Below are positions 36,975 through 42,900 of a stretch of 47,323 nt of DNA, piece after piece. The position numbers and the translations under genes are program-made. Numbering within the stretch: position 1 is the stretch's first letter; every line of letters begins with the position of its first letter. This DNA is from Pseudonocardiales bacterium (GTDB lineage: Bacteria > Actinomycetota > Actinomycetes > Mycobacteriales > Pseudonocardiaceae), in contig JAHEXI010000027.1 in assembly GCA_023252195.1 (NCBI GenBank), positions 1-47,323 on the forward strand. The letters are read 5' to 3'. The notes under the pieces are model-generated. The model had not been told where the DNA came from, ran no database searches, and worked only from the letters and a program-made list of their open reading frames with translations.

Positions 36975-37051
36975 GCCGCCTTAGCTCAGTCGGACAGAGC
37001 GGCTCACTCGTAATGAGCAGGTCCGGGGTTCGATTCCCCGAGGCGGCTCCA
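36975..37051 (+). tRNA. tRNA-Thr (anticodon CGT)
   Basis: The acceptor stem GCCGCCT pairs with AGGCGGC (37041-37047). The D arm TTAGCTCAGTCGGACAGAGC is followed by an anticodon stem GCTCA/TGAGC with loop CTCGTAA (anticodon CGT), and the T arm has GGGGTTCGATTCCCC. A T discriminator and CCA (37049-37051) are encoded. A small palindrome, GCGCTGTTGGCAGCGC, abuts its 5' end. Tyrosine integrases often insert at tRNA 3' ends, and an integrase remnant lies 88 bp downstream. Confidence 0.95.
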
Positions 37052-37139: not shown

Positions 37140-37475
37140 ATGACGCAGGCCAGGAGCTACCGGAACAAGCGGCAGCGCGGCAGCATCGAGGAGCTGCCCA
37201 GCGGTGCGCTGCGGGTCTCCGTGTACGCCGGAACCGACCCGCTGACCGGCGGACGGCACTATGTGCGGGAGACGATCCCGGCTGGCCCCCGCGCGGAGGA
37301 CGAGGCGCAGAAGGCCATGCGCCGGCTGGCGACCGAGGTCGACGAGCGGCGTAACCCACGGACGAACGCCACCGTGAACCAGCTCCTCGACCGGCACTTC
37401 GAGCTTGCCGATCTAGCCGCTTGCGGAGTCCCGATCGACAAAAAGTTGTCTATGCTGCGGTGGCCTCGGTGGTGA
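37140..37475 (+). pseudogene. Tyrosine integrase, N-terminal remnant beside tRNA-Thr
   Basis: The first about 92 residues (RQRGSIEELPSGALRVSVYA, RRLATEVDERRNPRTNATVN, QLLDRHFEL) match the arm-binding and early core-binding part of actinophage-type tyrosine integrases. Similarity ends near 37418; the frame then reads unrelated residues to TGA 37475. The catalytic domain with R-H-R-Y is absent. A TACAGT hexamer (37128-37133) ends 6 nt before the ATG without a ribosome site, suggesting a leaderless mRNA. The break is where the paralogous gene pair begins. Confidence 0.8.
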
Positions 37476-39116
37476 TGCCGAGGTGGTGGAAGAGGGTGTG
37501 CAGGTTGATGCGGAGGGTTTCGTAGTCGCGGTCGACGCGGGTCCAGGTGGCGGGTTTGCGTCCCAGCCGTGGGCTGCGGACACCGGCCAGGATGGGTGCG
37601 ATGACCTGCTCGCGCAGGGTTAGTAGGGCGGCGATGGTGCCGGCAAGGTGGGCCGGGATCTGGTAGCGGCGGGTCCGGCCGGGTTTGGTGATCAGGTCCT
37701 TGCCGCGCAGTTTGCGCAGGTTGTAGGCGCCTTGGCGGCTGGTGTAGTCGGAATCGGTCTGTCCGGTCATGGTGTGGACCTTGGCGGTGAACTCGGTGAC
37801 GGTGAAGCCGTCGGGTGCGGTGGACAGGGCCAGCGTTGCCGACAGTGCGGCTCGGATCCGGGGCTTGTTCACATCGACCCCGCCGACGCGGGTGGCGCCG
37901 ATCTGGCTGGGTGGTGGGAGCTGGTCGAGGAGCCCATCGCCGATGAAGGTGACATCGACGCAGTCCAGGGTGGTGGCGAACCGGTCGACCATGCCGGCGA
38001 GCCGGCCGATGATCTCGGGGAGCGGTCCAGGATACGCCCGCAGCGCAACTGCTTGGTGTTGTGCACGACCGCTTCGAAGCGCAGCACATGCTCGCCTTTG
38101 GTATACGCCTTCAGTGTCAGGTTCCCGAAGTGGACCTTGAACAGGGTCAGGTCATACCGAGGTGTCTCGATCACTGCTGCGAGCCGAAGCGACAGGTCGG
38201 GGGTGCCGTTTCGGGCGGGGCGTTGCTTGGCGCCGAACAGGGTCCGCGGCGTCGGCACGTCCAGCCGGGAGCGGGTCCGGTCGACTACCCGGTCGAACAC
38301 CTTCTCCATCTGGGCGCCGACCTTGAACAGCAGGTTGCGGCTGTACTCGGCTTGGTAGACCGAGTAGCCGTAGCGGAAGCAGCTGCGTTCCTGCTCCTCG
38401 AGGTCCAGGCCGAAGCACAGGCAGGCCGAATAGGTCCACCGCTCGCAGACCTGGCTCAGGCGCCCTATCGTCGCGGGTTGCGACAAGGTGTCTGCGACCT
38501 GAGCCAGGCCTGCGGGGTCGGCGACTGCGGTGAAGCAGTTGCCCTCTTTGGTGAAGCCGATCCCGGCCAGCTGTGCCCGGGCGCCGACGTACTCGTGGCC
38601 GTTGAGGATGACCTGCGCGCCGAACGGCGGATGGCCGGACATCTTGATCGTCACATGGCCCCATTCCGGATCCATGATGTGAAACGAGTAATGGTTGACG
38701 AAGGTCTGTTTCTTGGCCAGGTTGACGATCACCCCACCGCTGGAGCGGGTGACCTCCCACACCGACGCCGAGGCGCGGGCGACCAGGATCAGAAACATTC
38801 CCGGGCCGACCGCGTGCGAGGCGAGGTACTCCTCGGAGATCTGATGCTTACGCTCGCCGCGCTTGCAGTCGATGACCGAGACCCCGTGGGCCCGGGCCGA
38901 GGCCCGAACCCGGCGGGCGAACCGGCCCGCCATCCGCATCAGGTGCGCGTTGTCCAGCTGATCATCGGAGTCCTCGTGCCACCGCCGCCACCACACCCGA
39001 AACCCGCCCGGCGAGTGACACAGCGAGTTGTAGGCGTTAAGCACGATACGATCCACGCAGTCGTAACTGCCCGCCAGAAGATCCCCGTAGCGTTCGCTGA
39101 ACCCGTCAACCACCAC
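37450..39116 (-). pseudogene. Uncharacterised paired protein 1, wHTH C-terminus, one frameshift
   Basis: From GTG 39116 the frame reads DCVDRIVLNAYNSLCHSPGG to LRCGRILDR near 38025, where a one-base loss shifts it. The second frame goes on PEIIGRLAGMVDRFATTLDC to TAG at 37450. Restoring one base gives 555 residues. Central block: LNGHEY, then AGIGFT and DPAGLAQVADTL; the C-terminal region (GAYNLRKLRGKDLITKPG to RRYQIP) looks like a winged helix. The same blocks occur in order in the neighbour at 39201-40806. I know the type only as uncharacterised actinobacterial proteins. The frameshift may be decay or sequencing error. Confidence 0.6.
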
Positions 39117-39171
39117 GGCACACTATTGGGAACCGACCACGCCCGATCACACCGGCGGCCAACACTGCCCC

Positions 39172-39187
39172 GTCAGGGGATTGAAAC
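39172..39187. repeat. Solitary CRISPR-repeat-like motif
   Basis: The 16 bases GTCAGGGGATTGAAAC, preceded by CTGCCCC so that CCCC/GGGG can pair, look like the 3' half of many type I and III CRISPR repeats, which end in ATTGAAAC. It occurs only once; there is no spacer series and no cas gene. It lies in the 84-bp gap between the two paired genes. Confidence 0.3.
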
Positions 39188-39200
39188 TTGAGCCAAGTTT
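39184..39200 (+). terminator. Short AT-rich hairpin between the paired genes
   Basis: AAACTTG (39184-39190) and CAAGTTT (39194-39200) form a 7-bp stem with a 3-nt loop, followed by two more T on the plus strand. It lies immediately after the stop codon of the second paired gene and overlaps the ATTGAAAC motif. Confidence 0.35.
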
Positions 39201-40806
39201 TTAGGCGGCCATACGGGCCTCGCAGGTGTAGTCATCGACGTGGTGGTTGATCACCCGGAGGGCTTGGCGGAGGGCGAGTGGTGCGGGTGGGTCGTGGGCG
39301 GCGAGCAGCGGCCGTAGGAGCCGGTTGTGGAGCTTGGTGTAGAAGATCGCGACGCGTTGCCCGTCGGGGGTTAGGACGTAGCTGTTGGATCGGGGCAGCC
39401 GGGTGATCAAGCCTTTGAGGCGAAACCAGCGCAGGTCATAACTCATCTGACTCATCGAGTACGGCACACCGAGCAGGGTGCTCACCTGGGCGCGAAGGCT
39501 CCGGTTGGTGAACCCGGTGACGGTGTGCACGAGGGCGCACAGGGCGCTGGCCAGGGCCATGACCCGAGGGTCGCCGAACCGCAGGGCTGGGGCCCTCCGA
39601 CCCTCCACCAGGGATGGTCGCGCGACCCGCTCAAAGGCTGGGCTCGCAAGGACACAACCCTGACCGACACGGAAAGCATCGACCATGCGACGGTTGACGT
39701 CACGGGCTTTGACCGATAGTTCCTCCAGATGTTCCAGCCGCCGCGCCACCCCGAGATCACTGGTGTCGTTGACGACGGTCTCGATCCGAAACGCCCGACC
39801 GCACTTGAGGTAGGACTTCACCCTGGAGTGCCGGAAATAGGCGTTGAGGGTGACCTCATCACCGGAGCGCAGCAGCTTGGTGCGGTAGCCACCGGCCGGA
39901 GCGGTGCGCACCCGACGACCGAAGATGATCTGCATCTCCTCCGGTCGGCCGATGTCGAGGTTGTCGCTACACAACACCTCAAAGAACCCGCGAGCATGGC
40001 GAGGTGCGTCGAAGACGATCGTGCGGGAGACCTCGACCTGGCGCATCGAGATGTCCCACCAGTACCCAGCGGCCCGATCCGTGTCGGTCAGCGGTAGTGG
40101 CAACCGCGCCCACCAGCGCTCGCAGAACACCCGGATCGTCCCCGGCCCGAGACTGTCACAGATCCGTTGCAACCCGGCGGGGTCCTCGGTGGTGGCGAAG
40201 CCGTTGTCCAGTGGCGTGAAGCCGATGCCCGCCGCAGTGGCGGCCCGCTTCGAATACTCGTGACCGTTAAGCCAGATCTTGATCGGATAAGGGAAATACG
40301 CGCAGACTTTGACAAACGCCGGCCCGAACACCTCATCCACCAGATAGAAGTAATAGGCCGTGACGCGACGGTCGGCCTTGGCGTAACCGAACCGCGGGAC
40401 CCCGCCACCACCCTCATCACCGTGGTAGGTGGTGCCAGTGAACACCCGCTGGAACTCCTGAGCCACCCCGATCGCCGCGACCCCCGGTCCGTCCCTCTGC
40501 GACCAGCCGCTCCAGGTACGGGCGCATCACCTCCAGCTTGCGCTGCCCCTTGGCGAAGCGGATCACCGGGATGTCGCTCTCGGCGGCGAACTCCGCGACC
40601 GACTTGCGGAACTGCAACCCGATGCGCTCCAGCAACGCCGGAGACGGGATCGGGAACCCCAAATGCTGGGTCAAGAAGCTGACCACCTGCCCAGGCACCT
40701 GCAGGGTCGGCACCCAACCATTGAGATAGATCCGGTCAAAGCACTCCAGATCCAACCCGACATGCCCATCGAGGACGTCATTCACAGTCACGACACAGGT
40801 CGCCAT
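39201..40806 (-). pseudogene. Uncharacterised paired protein 2, wHTH C-terminus, one frameshift
   Basis: ATG 40806 has a strong GGAGGT 5 nt upstream. The frame reads DVLDGHVGLDLECFDRIYLN to LVAEGRTG. One extra G in a G5 run (plus-strand C5 at 40481-40485) shifts it, and the second frame resumes VAAIGVAQEFQRVFTGTTYH and runs to TAA at 39201. Removing one base gives 534 residues. Shared with the neighbour: DRIYLN, LNGHEY, AGIGFT, DPAGLQRICDSL, and a C-terminal winged-helix-like YDLRWFRLKGLITRLPRSNS. It is first in a likely two-gene operon. Function unknown; a DNA-binding role is inferred from the winged helix. Confidence 0.6.
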
Positions 40807-41022
40807 GGCGCACCTCCGCAGCGAGTCAGCCCAACCCCGCCACCCTGGCCTCACCCAACCGCCACGTCATCCACCAACCCAGCCACCACCTCGGCGGTCC
40901 GAGGCGCAGCCTCTTTAGTACCACTGTGTGGTGCAGTTGAGTCCCCGATTGATTCCACGAGCCACGGCAACGCCGCCGTGTGCAGATGTGATCACCCATG
41001 ATGACCTTGGGCCTCGACCGCC
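40807..41022. other. Upstream region of the paired genes
   Basis: Apart from the ribosome site of the gene ending at 40806, this region has a Pro/Thr-type shadow frame only. No domain, repeat copy or RNA was recognised. It probably contains the promoter of the pair and the other boundary of the inserted segment. Confidence 0.35.
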
Positions 41023-41250: not shown

Positions 41251-42897
41251 TCACTCGCAAGGGTTGCTGTTTGGACGCGGGTTCTGACCGGGCAGACGCT
41301 TGAGCGCGTGCAGCCCGCGTAGGAACGCGATCGCCTCGCCCTGTGTCTTCGGCTGCTGCGGCAGGGGGACTCCGGCGACCGCGGCGGCCCCGGCCACTAT
41401 CGAGCGCTGCAGGTCGGTGAGCGGGACTGTGCTGAAGTCGATGTCCCAGAGCCCGGCAGGAATCTGCGGTTTCGGGATATCGGGCCAGGTTGATACATCT
41501 CGCAGGGCCGGTGCGGTGAACACCTCACGAAAGTCGGGCGCGGCAGCGTCCCGGGCGGTCAGTGGTCCGGTGATGTAGCGGCTCCACTTTTTGAACATCG
41601 TTTTGAGGAACGAGGTGTGGTCGTGGCAGGTGTTGATGACCGTGTTCGGCGCGATGTGCGCGGAAACCATCACCATCGGCACGCGCACGCCGAGGCGGGT
41701 GAAGTCGAAATCGTCCCACTTGGTGTAACCGGACAGGTCGGGCGGGGTGACTCCGGTGGGGGGCGCGACGTGGTCGTAACAACCGCCGTGCTCGTCGTGG
41801 GTGATAATCAGCAGCGTATTGCGCCAGCTGTTGCCCTTGCCCCCGTGAGCGCCCGTCGAATTCTTGATCGCGTTGTACACCGACCAGATGAGCTCCTCAC
41901 CCAGCAGCACGCTGCCCACAACGTCGGGACCGTAATTCTTGTCGTCCCAGGTTGAGGGATGCTGGTCGTTGTGCGGCGTCCAGAAAACCGGTTCAAGAAA
42001 CGAGTACTTCGGTAACGTGCCGGCCGCGCAGTCGGTGAAGAAGTCTTCCAAGCGCGGGAAGTGGTCATCCAGCGGCGTGTGGTACGCGGCGAGGGCCCCG
42101 GCGTGGATGATCCCGGTCAGCGAGGCCTCGTTGCTGCTGTACACCCGCCAATCCAGCGGGGAGCTCAGCCCGCTGTCGGAGATTTTGTTGAACAGTGTCT
42201 CGCCGATACTGTCGGCTACCCAGCTGGCGGTGTTCTCATCGTAGTAATCGGGGTCGCCAAAGTTGATGACGTGTCCCCAGGACGTGCCGGCATGCCAGAA
42301 TGCGCGGTTGCAACAGGTGTGGCTGGGCACCGAGCAAAACCAGTGATCGAAAACCGCGAACTGCTCGGCGAGCGTGGTGAGCACTGGAACCTGCTCTGGC
42401 TTGAAACACTGCATGATCGGCTGATACTGCTGATATTTCGGACCGGCGCCACCGTCCGTGTCGCCAAGCGGGAAGCTCGCGATGTAGTCACTCACAAATC
42501 CCTGCATCCCCGGTGTCGTCGGTACCGGGCTCGGCAAGTTGTAGGGCTCCTTGTCGTTGCCGTTGATCACATTGAACAGCTGCGTGTTGACGTGGTAGTA
42601 CTGTTCCCCCGGATCAGGAAAAGGCTGGTGATAGTCGGGCGGGTCGGGCACCGGGGAGACCGGGATCGACGTCACACCGCGAGGCGGCGCAGACTGGCCG
42701 GTGGCGGTGTTGGGGATCGGATTAGCCAGGTTCTTGCCTGCCACACCCTCAAAAGTCTTACCCGCTGGCGCGTTGTCGGGCACACCGTCCGGGTACAGGT
42801 AACCCAGCAGATTGTCAAAGGAGCGGTTCTCCAACATCAGCACGACGACATAGTCGAAGCCATCGAAAACCTCACCCACATCAGTAGTTGGTCGCAT
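41251..42897 (-). CDS. Phospholipase C / acid phosphatase-type phosphoesterase
   Basis: The 548-residue protein carries the metal-site motif FDYVVVLMLENRSFDNLLGY at the N-terminus, HWFCSVPSHTCCNRAFWHAG, and THDEHGGCYDHVAPP with a further HDHTS near the end. This is the phosphoesterase family that includes bacterial phospholipase C and acid phosphatase AcpA. Most members have a Tat signal; this one begins only about 18 residues before the ENRSFD motif, so it appears cytoplasmic or has lost its signal. ATG 42897 has AAGGG about 8 nt upstream; GTG 42900 is directly before it. Its substrate (lipid or phosphomonoester) is not evident. Confidence 0.85.
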   Translation of the reverse strand: MRPTTDVGEVFDGFDYVVVLMLENRSFDNLLGYLYPDGVPDNAPAGKTFEGVAGKNLANPIPNTATGQSAPPRGVTSIPVSPVPDPPDYHQPFPDPGEQYYHVNTQLFNVINGNDKEPYNLPSPVPTTPGMQGFVSDYIASFPLGDTDGGAGPKYQQYQPIMQCFKPEQVPVLTTLAEQFAVFDHWFCSVPSHTCCNRAFWHAGTSWGHVINFGDPDYYDENTASWVADSIGETLFNKISDSGLSSPLDWRVYSSNEASLTGIIHAGALAAYHTPLDDHFPRLEDFFTDCAAGTLPKYSFLEPVFWTPHNDQHPSTWDDKNYGPDVVGSVLLGEELIWSVYNAIKNSTGAHGGKGNSWRNTLLIITHDEHGGCYDHVAPPTGVTPPDLSGYTKWDDFDFTRLGVRVPMVMVSAHIAPNTVINTCHDHTSFLKTMFKKWSRYITGPLTARDAAAPDFREVFTAPALRDVSTWPDIPKPQIPAGLWDIDFSTVPLTDLQRSIVAGAAAVAGVPLPQQPKTQGEAIAFLRGLHALKRLPGQNPRPNSNPCE

Positions 42898-42900
42898 CAC

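Follow-up and report, generated by a model that had tools for sequence, protein, structure and literature searches.

To our knowledge, transposases employ only a few kinds of chemistry: DDE/DEDD, HUH tyrosine, tyrosine and serine recombinases, Cas1 and reverse transcriptase. Elements of the IS200/IS605 type have no terminal inverted repeats, make no target duplication, insert 3' of a tetranucleotide, carry hairpins near their ends and have a right-end site that resembles the target; they encode an HUH Y1 transposase of ~150 aa, and TnpB. IS91 and the Helitrons have a 3' hairpin near a CTRR-like end. For these two groups PMC5714925 describes a one-strand model with an HUH Y1/Y2 transposase, and it defines Rep_trans motif II as T/SxY/ExG and motif IV as W/LxRxE. 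The active site of the Rep_trans initiator RepDE comprises D46, RxD142, RxY191xK193 and RxE214. The Rep-Arvir initiators of archaeal viruses and plasmids join an N-terminal Rep_trans-like TBP-fold domain of ~300 aa to a MarR-like winged helix, according to PMC13107129, which also reports the TBP-fold protein A0A2N9QVX7 as a match for the Rep_trans-like Rep-Arvir.

Here we describe two adjacent genes, A and B, in a 47,323-nucleotide stretch of DNA from a Pseudonocardiales bacterium (the whole stretch is referred to as the window). It is near certain that they belong to mobile elements, namely two related insertion sequences in tandem, from a family without a name, whose transposases they encode. 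We give a probability of roughly 0.7 to the reading that these are insertion sequences with a Rep_trans-like nuclease, hairpin ends, a CTAR target and, as we propose, a single-strand cycle.

Organization of the tandem locus

The locus begins with a tRNA-Thr (CGT) gene (36975..37051, plus strand, found by ARAGORN) and the 5' fragment of a tyrosine integrase gene (37140..37412, plus strand, 91 aa), a relative of which was present in 22/41 genomes. Its 81% DNA relative at another locus, L136, aligns to the window from the tRNA up to 37414, where the match ends. The first-pass annotation had placed the left edge of the gene pair at the integrase cut-off, and this edge proved sharp: the 3' end of the B element, at 37413, lies inside the integrase gene. 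Its right (3') terminus is a CTAG (37413..37416, minus strand); the same end opens the matches in two remnants elsewhere in this genome (C31 and C13) and closes the B copies of M. riyadhense. Next to it is a subterminal 3' region (37417..37449, minus strand) with the short inverted repeat GACAA..TTGTC, whose fold z-score is only -0.9.

Both genes are on the minus strand, A upstream and B downstream, as first described. Gene A consists of two ORFs in different frames (40854..40417 and 40466..39201), as does gene B (39116..about 38013 and 37992..37450), so both genes are interrupted by a frameshift; the pieces were analysed separately with the frameshifts left unrepaired. The first piece of A (40417..40806) starts with an ATG at 40806 that is preceded by GGAGGT, the strong ribosome site previously noticed, contains ECFDRIYLN (40720-40746) and loses its frame near 40466. 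The second (39201..40466) holds the rest of the nuclease-like domain (RQVEVSR, 40023-40043; KSYLKCGRAFRIE, 39780-39818) and a winged helix (39399-39446), and is 63% identical to an M. riyadhense protein. In B, the first piece (38013..39116) carries the nuclease-like domain (DRIVLN, 39036-39062; YQAEYSR, 38337-38357; KAYTKGEHVLRFE, 38073-38111), loses its frame near 38013 and shares 68% identity with residues 4-367 of the M. riyadhense B protein. The second (37450..37992) is the C-terminal part with its winged helix (AYNLRKLRGKDLITK at 37684-37728), 62% identical to residues 363-550. Both insertion sequences are dead in this genome.

A and B are paralogues whose similarity exceeds chance (34% identity over 227 aa; within-genome E 4.9e-21), and the motifs said to be common to them are real and in identical order. 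The winged-helix-like C-terminal end was borne out by weak AbiEi/ArsR/HTH models in relatives and by MarR-type structures in the fold search. The 84-bp spacing was also confirmed, with the stop of A at 39201 and the start of B at 39116; this junction (39117..39200, minus strand) carries a remnant of the A-type 3' motif (AACTTGGCTCAAGTTTC) and contains no CTAR in the window. On the other side, the 5' terminal hairpin of A, GAGGC-TGC-GCCTC (40901..40913, minus strand), has a pattern seen in most intact relatives. The first base of the A element, its left (5') edge, is at 40914 (minus strand), an end found also in remnant C48 of the same genome, and a CTAA target tetranucleotide (40915..40918, minus strand) lies directly outside it. 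The right edge of the tandem is at 40914, farther out than the 40806 of the first-pass annotation.

Copies, empty sites and mobility

Intact A-type elements of ~1.8 kb occur in several phyla. Of 80 sampled A-type loci 24 were not carried on, leaving 56; removal of five with stops gave 51 intact relatives, and four more were left out of the 47-row protein alignment. A typical intact element follows a CTAR target and consists of a hairpin, one gene of ~535 codons, a subterminal structure and a CTAG that adjoins the flank. Three contiguous copies of ~1,847 bp (99.2-99.6% identity), whose adjoining flanks are unrelated, were found in Mycobacterium sp. SM1, along with a fourth copy that is 99.5% identical over 1,661 bp. 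Pairs within one genome were also seen in Bu41 (99.6%), P. kunmingensis (99.9%), Kibdelosporangium (96.6%) and a Vicinamibacterales MAG (92.7%). Paraburkholderia and Caballeronia plasmids have in common a 93.3% copy (two joined pieces) whose edges are exactly CTAA and CTAG.

A first batch search for empty sites among the fetched loci gave none. In 8/11 loci of genus mates, 0 to about 40 nt separate the end of the left flank from the right flank, and this empty site places the insertion 3' of CTAA; its filled counterpart lies in two parts on separate contigs, which were paired by synteny. For another pair of loci (L153/L013 of genome G016), the left flank was found in every one of the 24 genomes searched, among them G016, and the right flank was not found in the nine loci tested. 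The evidence for mobility comes from genomic comparison: the ends, near-identical copies at different sites, one duplication-free insertion 3' of CTAA and the tandem use of an end.

These observations bear on the earlier suggestion of a self-mobilising or defence element. Its self-mobilising half stands, on the multiple copies, defined ends and empty site; for the defence half the searches made, with PADLOC outside their scope, found no evidence. A pair of toxin-antitoxin, defence or regulatory genes carried by an island would account for the weak AbiEi/MarR/ArsR matches of the C-terminal end and for the adjoining integrase. We rejected this as scarcely credible given the multiple copies, sharp edges and empty site of the elements, a gene that is solitary at most loci seen, and no match in phage records. 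Viral contigs likewise gave no relatives.

The two genes had further been taken for a two-subunit system kept as a pair. A B-type protein was found at 0/80 A-type loci in the flanking DNA examined (0 to 8 kb, so that some could be missed), and the obligate pair was rejected. The earlier suggestion had been staked on homologues not lying alone at random places, and they lie alone at many places. Among related genomes, several of them incomplete, three (G002, G008 and G009) gave A-type matches with the B match absent, and one (G006) gave a B-type match (60%) with no clear A. M. riyadhense has three B copies, every one starting directly after a CTA, and one of them is 97% identical over the B part only.

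A rival proposal is that A and B together make up a single element with two genes and that their products act as a heteromeric transposase. It draws on the window and M. riyadhense, which both show A then B on the same strand and in the same order, and on strain MFM001, where the 5' end of B follows A. We consider it improbable in view of the 0/80 count and of the M. riyadhense B copies that begin on their own after CTA. Furthermore, in M. riyadhense (and apparently likewise in MFM001) the terminal CTA of A is precisely where B sits, which is the outcome given by one element inserting into the end of another. A and B are each the only gene of an insertion sequence, and such insertion sequences are mostly found alone.

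Element ends and target

The 5' hairpin pattern was found in 42/51 intact relatives, with C[TC]A[AG] at most 8 nt outside the hairpin in 36/42 (chance 5%). At the other end 27/27 had CTA[GA] no more than 60 nt from the 3' motif (chance 6%), the spacing being 30 nt in 16. One pair of the 5' hairpin was A-T in 20/28 rows, G-C in 8/28 and mixed in none; the overall pairing of 98.6% is largely by construction, because rows were chosen by their stem pattern and only this varying pair was left free. A 3' hairpin is visible in many elements and is variable, and fold z-scores of single DNA ends are modest (0.07 to -1.9).

No direct repeat of 3-8 nt was found at the ends of 33 elements in the two registers tested; the right end was set by a simple rule as the first CTA[AG], which is internal in some elements, and 2/35 elements were dropped where the rule had set it at an internal CTAA. 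A left CTAA was combined with a right CTAG in 19/33 elements, and CTAR as a target duplication was rejected on this ground. The ends, read by eye, showed no terminal inverted repeats. In the target, A was preferred at position -8 (21/32, p 3e-9).

A-type elements resemble IS200/IS605 in lacking terminal inverted repeats, in duplication-free insertion 3' of a tetranucleotide and in a right-end site like the target, and they may also have hairpins near both ends, but their protein is ~535 aa instead of ~150 and they have neither an HUH Y1 transposase nor TnpB. With IS91 and the Helitrons they have in common a one-strand model, as proposed here, the absence of duplication and, in many elements, a 3' hairpin near a CTRR-like end; they differ in having no HUH or Y2 motif and in their CTAR target with its upstream A preference. 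The 47-row alignment contains no conserved HUH motif and gave no Pfam transposase match. A-type elements lack the terminal inverted repeats and the target duplication of DDE insertion sequences.

Protein fold and conserved residues

In Foldseek searches of the PDB, the best match of two AlphaFold models, whose proteins are 43% identical to each other over the domain, was the Rep_trans (TBP-fold) rolling-circle initiator 4cij. The first model matched it with E 9.7e-3 and probability 0.95, the second with 2.8e-3 and 0.99 (second chain 3.9e-3 and 0.98). No E-value in the PDB reached 0.001, and TM-scores were low (0.21-0.37). Among the 50 matches listed for the domain none besides 4cij exceeded probability 0.41, and no RNase H fold was among the matches listed. 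The top match in BFVD was A0A2N9QVX7, the match reported for Rep-Arvir.

D23, Q251xE253, K329/K333 and R339xE341 were invariant in 47/47 A-type proteins, and Y331 was present in 45/47, two open copies having H (L101) and D (L121) instead. D23 is on a predicted strand (15-30), and each conserved group is on its own predicted strand. Judged from these positions, D, QxE, KxYxK and RxE appear to recur in the same order as the RepDE active site. The likeness to Rep_trans (PF02486) and the MOB_T relaxases (RepD/RepDE, RepSTK1) includes the best PDB fold match and, in one order, D, an acidic residue on a second strand, R/K-x-Y-x-K and R-x-E. The motif N' aspartate on an N-terminal strand is present as D23, and motif IV is present as LRxE, L338 being conserved in at least 90%. 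Of motif III (YxKxxE) the tyrosine and lysines are found, with the E not at the same spacing. In contrast, the RxD of motif I is replaced by QxE in all 47, spacing is longer, a C-terminal winged helix is present, and the A-type works as an integrated element bounded by two ends instead of as a replicon. Rep-Arvir has the combination of domains that is predicted here, but it belongs to archaeal replicons, has a KHYYM motif and is not an insertion sequence.

Profile searches gave no confident match to a known family; such a match would have counted against the earlier suggestion. Pfam, NCBIfam and PHROGs produced weak winged-helix or chance matches only, and the PDB searched by sequence gave chance-level matches (ribosomal S2 at 0.03). 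No Pfam family was above its cut-off in any of the 47 members. PF02486 was absent from the 11 families matched by any member at E 0.1, as was the Rep-Arvir family DUF7845 (PF25227), assuming that its model is in the library. The window pieces did not match PF02486 at E 1, and it was found in 0/296 Actinomycetota genomes. RepD had no match in viral contigs and 964 in plasmid records, from which four relatives were taken for a comparison alignment with RepD; Erysipelothrix pAP1 was left out, as was a candidate yardstick, Xanthomonas phage Cf1c, whose initiator shows an HUH-like motif. Profile-profile comparison (hhalign) of the A-type family with this alignment failed (probability 0.2 and 0.3). 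Because sequence profiles do not detect the link, we do not claim membership of Rep_trans.

The marginal Foldseek E-values and the failed profile comparison would also suit real insertion sequences whose transposase is an unrelated nuclease, of unknown fold or DDE/metal chemistry, with a superficial likeness in TBP-type topology, as would D152, E116 and D349, which are likewise invariant among the 47 proteins. This is unlikely, however, since 4cij led the PDB matches for both of the diverged models with no other listed match near it, the residues follow the Rep_trans active-site order on separate predicted strands, and the matches listed held no RNase H fold. We propose that the protein joins a Rep_trans-like tyrosine nuclease of TBP-type fold to a C-terminal, MarR-like winged helix, and we infer fold homology, a tyrosine nucleophile and single-strand intermediates.

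Proposed transposition cycle

The best reading is that these proteins represent a new class of transposase, in which a winged helix accompanies a Rep_trans-like tyrosine nuclease, with a chemistry that we infer as follows. The winged helix and the folded hairpins would select the element ends, and the KxYxK tyrosine would nick one strand immediately 3' of CTAR on the left and immediately 3' of the CTAG that belongs to the element on the right, with D, QxE and RxE holding a metal. The single strand would then be set free, probably in circular form, and enter a new single-stranded target 3' of a CTAR, so that no target duplication would arise. The new right end would carry CTAG, itself usable as a target, hence tandems. 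Such a cycle would resemble IS200/IS605 single-strand transposition.

We also lean, somewhat less firmly, towards the broader view that a class of insertion sequences over several phyla moves by a Rep_trans/TBP-fold tyrosine nuclease, IS605-like peel-and-paste having been invented independently. In the open-access PMC literature that could be searched, preprints excluded, we found no Rep_trans- or TBP-fold insertion sequence. If correct, this would bring into transposition an enzyme type so far known only from conjugation and from the replication of plasmids, phages and archaeal viruses, and would add one transposase chemistry, a new way for DNA to jump; single-strand transposition would have arisen at least twice from replication initiators. 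Such elements have until now been annotated as hypothetical or ArsR-like proteins, and automatic annotation misses the mobile family.

Genes A and B at the tRNA-Thr locus

Beside the tRNA-Thr gene of the window lie, in order, a tyrosine integrase fragment (its first 91 codons), gene B (39116 to 37450) and gene A (40806 to 39201), A and B both being on the minus strand. Mycobacterial plasmids were the nearest named matches of the contig. The first-pass annotation had described A and B as paralogues abutting a truncated integrase, and both points were confirmed: a search within the own genome matched A to B (34% over 227 aa, E = 4.9e-21), and the integrase gene is cut by the 3′ end of B at 37413. 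Pieces of both genes gave no meaningful match in Pfam or NCBIfam. Each gene is split over two reading frames; the pieces were searched separately with the frames left unmended.

At the integrase cut point, an 81% relative (locus L136) has CTTG in place of CTAG. The junction between A and B is degraded, with a remnant of the 3′ motif of A and no CTAR (the target tetranucleotide, CTAA or CTAG). Beginning at 40925, DNA to the right of A was inspected in three frames by eye and does not resemble the missing integrase half, suggesting that the tandem was rearranged or its flank replaced. The end of B is shared with remnants on contigs C31 and C13 of the same genome, and that of A with a remnant on C48. 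The window copies of A and B are dead. An intact phosphoesterase-family gene (41251–42900; Pfam PF04185, phospholipase C-like) lies beside the element.

Distribution of A relatives

Searching 47 intact relatives of A against Pfam and PHROGs gave nothing beyond weak matches of the C-terminal end to winged-helix models. In plasmid records the relatives are labelled hypothetical or lack annotation, and one is called an ArsR family regulator. Relatives were present in 14/61 related genomes and 22 plasmid records, and absent from the phage records and viral contigs searched; 51 of the 56 loci examined were open across the matched stretch. A species-representative collection yielded 145 confirmed relatives, and the best 80 of these were kept. 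By record title (many are MAGs), Actinomycetota predominate among these best 80, which also cover Acidobacteriota, Pseudomonadota, Planctomycetota, Chloroflexota, Bacillota and an Opitutales MAG. Of 296 genomes drawn evenly from the phylum Actinomycetota, 12 had an A match (the window's own genome counted), compared with 0/296 for PF02486 (Rep_trans) proteins.

A-type loci are insertion sequences

We consider A-type loci to be insertion sequences, with a probability of about 0.97. In Mycobacterium sp. SM1 approximately 1,847 bp is common to three loci at 99.2–99.6% identity with unrelated adjoining flanks, and a fourth locus carries 1,661 bp at 99.5%. Similar within-genome pairs were seen in Bu41 (99.6%), Pseudonocardia kunmingensis (99.9%), Kibdelosporangium (96.6%) and a Vicinamibacterales MAG (92.7%), the P. 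kunmingensis pair being no marker of the left edge because its common stretch begins about 60 bp outside the hairpin. One element, common to Paraburkholderia and Caballeronia plasmids (93.3%, two joined pieces), has its edges exactly at CTAA and CTAG. The element contains one gene. Several contigs start exactly at CTAA/CTAG plus the element 5′ end (L107, L110, L118) or stop no more than a single base past the 3′ CTAG (L083, L087, L092), the way assemblies break at repeats. The earlier suggestion of a self-mobilizing element is thus upheld by near-identical copies with unrelated flanks, sharp ends and an empty site (see below).

Some element copies have an insertion of approximately 1.35 kb within them (L076:8917-10266; L077); in L076 the inserted sequence recurs at 100% identity upstream of another copy, L055.

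Element ends and target

A 5′ hairpin pattern, which does not require the tetranucleotide, was found in 42/51 elements, and in 36 of these 42 C[TC]A[AG] stood within 8 nt of its outer side (chance 5%, for the tetranucleotide and not for the hairpin pattern). In all 27 elements where the 3′ motif was found with enough sequence behind it, CTA[GA] came no more than 60 nt after the motif (chance 6%), at a spacing of 30 nt in 16. Among 28 aligned 5′ hairpins one pair covaries (A-T 20, G-C 8, mixed 0), a number of covarying cells reached by 0/500 shuffles, though as the sequences are related few events may underlie it. Choosing rows by stem pattern fixes the other pairs and leaves this one free. Overall, 98.6% of hairpin cells were paired, vs. 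28–54% when slid, and single-strand DNA folding energies of individual ends were unexceptional (z 0.07 to −1.9).

For 33 elements, with right ends assigned by a simple rule, left and right tetranucleotides were unequal in 25 and CTAA/CTAG in 19, and the two registers tested showed no direct repeat of 3 to 8 nt. Target flanks had A at −8 in 21/32 (p = 3e-9) and A at −5 in 17/32, and [GA]AAN2-4CYAR occurred in 12/32 element flanks vs. 209/3340 control CYAR sites. Judged from these sequences, the target would extend beyond CTAR.

An empty site was found in genus mates of genome G016, whose left junctions lie on contigs C19 and C39 and right junctions on C55 and C8. The assembly breaks the filled site in two, and its halves were paired through synteny. 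In 8 of 11 genus-mate loci, all fetched with the C8 right flank, the C39 left flank lies 0 to ~40 nt before that flank, and in the other three it had no match within the DNA fetched. The filled site runs GTCGAGGACTAA, then the element from CGGGG to CCCTCTAG, then CGCAGCAC; the empty sites are GTCGAGGACTAACTCAGTGCC (L172) and GTCGAGGACTAGAGCACC (L178), and some genus mates have TGA where others have CTAR. Read against L172, which has an equal length, the element entered 3′ of CTAA, with CTAG supplied by its right end and no duplication. At the C19 and C39 junctions (L153, L154) the CTAA used appears to include the stop codon TAA of a gene, which would therefore retain its stop.

A and B are separate elements

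In M. riyadhense three B copies begin directly after CTA, each with its own hairpin, and the one behind A begins exactly at the terminal CTA of A; MFM001 again has A plus the start of B. The right end of B (AAGCGGCTAG) is of the same kind as that of A. A and B are two elements, and the proposal that they are kept as a two-subunit system was not supported, as B copies start alone after CTA and 0/80 A loci had a B protein within the flanking DNA examined.

Fold, motifs and likely mode of movement

Two AlphaFold models were compared with known folds, one of a complete A-type protein (542 aa, pLDDT 87, pTM 0.84) and one covering residues 1–342 of a second protein at 43% identity to it (pLDDT 87). 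For both, the best PDB match was the Rep_trans rolling-circle initiator RepSTK1 (4cij). The remaining fold matches listed were MarR-type (C-terminal end), TBP or of low probability, and the top BFVD match was a TBP-fold protein that the Rep-Arvir authors also found (PMC13107129). For RepDE, PMC4797284 gives metal binding by D46, D142 and E214, the nucleophile Y191, and motifs RxD, RxYxK and RxE. Successive predicted strands of the A family carry D23, Q251xE253, K329xY331xK333 and R339xE341, invariant in 47 sequences save Y331 (45/47); D23 lies in a CxDRIYLN-type context (compare SIDRITIVG in L185), and RepSTK1 has RFYEK and RTEIQL. All four motifs also occur in B and in P0005 (L033:5581-7095), a deep-branching relative with an ArsR family regulator annotation (~25% identity), for which the A-type end pattern detected no element ends. 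Motif I, however, is RxD in RepDE and QxE in the A family, and profile-profile comparison with Rep_trans found nothing, so we do not file the family as PF02486. We propose that the A-type protein works like a Rep_trans nuclease, and Rep_trans-like tyrosine chemistry is likely.

Searches of the open-access PMC literature listed no transposon of this kind. In the accessible parts of PMC13107129 and PMC5714925 the roles named for Rep_trans-type enzymes are replication and conjugation, and on transposition those of PMC5714925 name HUH enzymes only. IS200/IS605 elements use an HUH tyrosine nuclease, whereas in A-type elements another kind of tyrosine enzyme appears to serve as the nuclease. A-type elements have no inverted repeats, insert 3′ of a short site without duplicating it, carry terminal hairpins, and end on the right in a site that is similar to the target and can act as one, as in the tandems at L113, L028 and L057; at L113:8730-8790 the 5′ end (CGAGGCTTCGCCTC) of a second element directly abuts the 3′ CTAG of the first. 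As these end features and the tandem use of the right end are the signature of IS200/IS605-type single-strand transposition, we lean toward single-strand, IS605-like movement. The terminal 17 nt at the element's 3′ end (CGACCAAGGATCGCTAG) are tandemly repeated in P. kunmingensis (two copies, L060:9640-9690) and M. xanthum (three, L056:2960-3025), perhaps left over from a pair of right-end CTAG sites having been used repeatedly.
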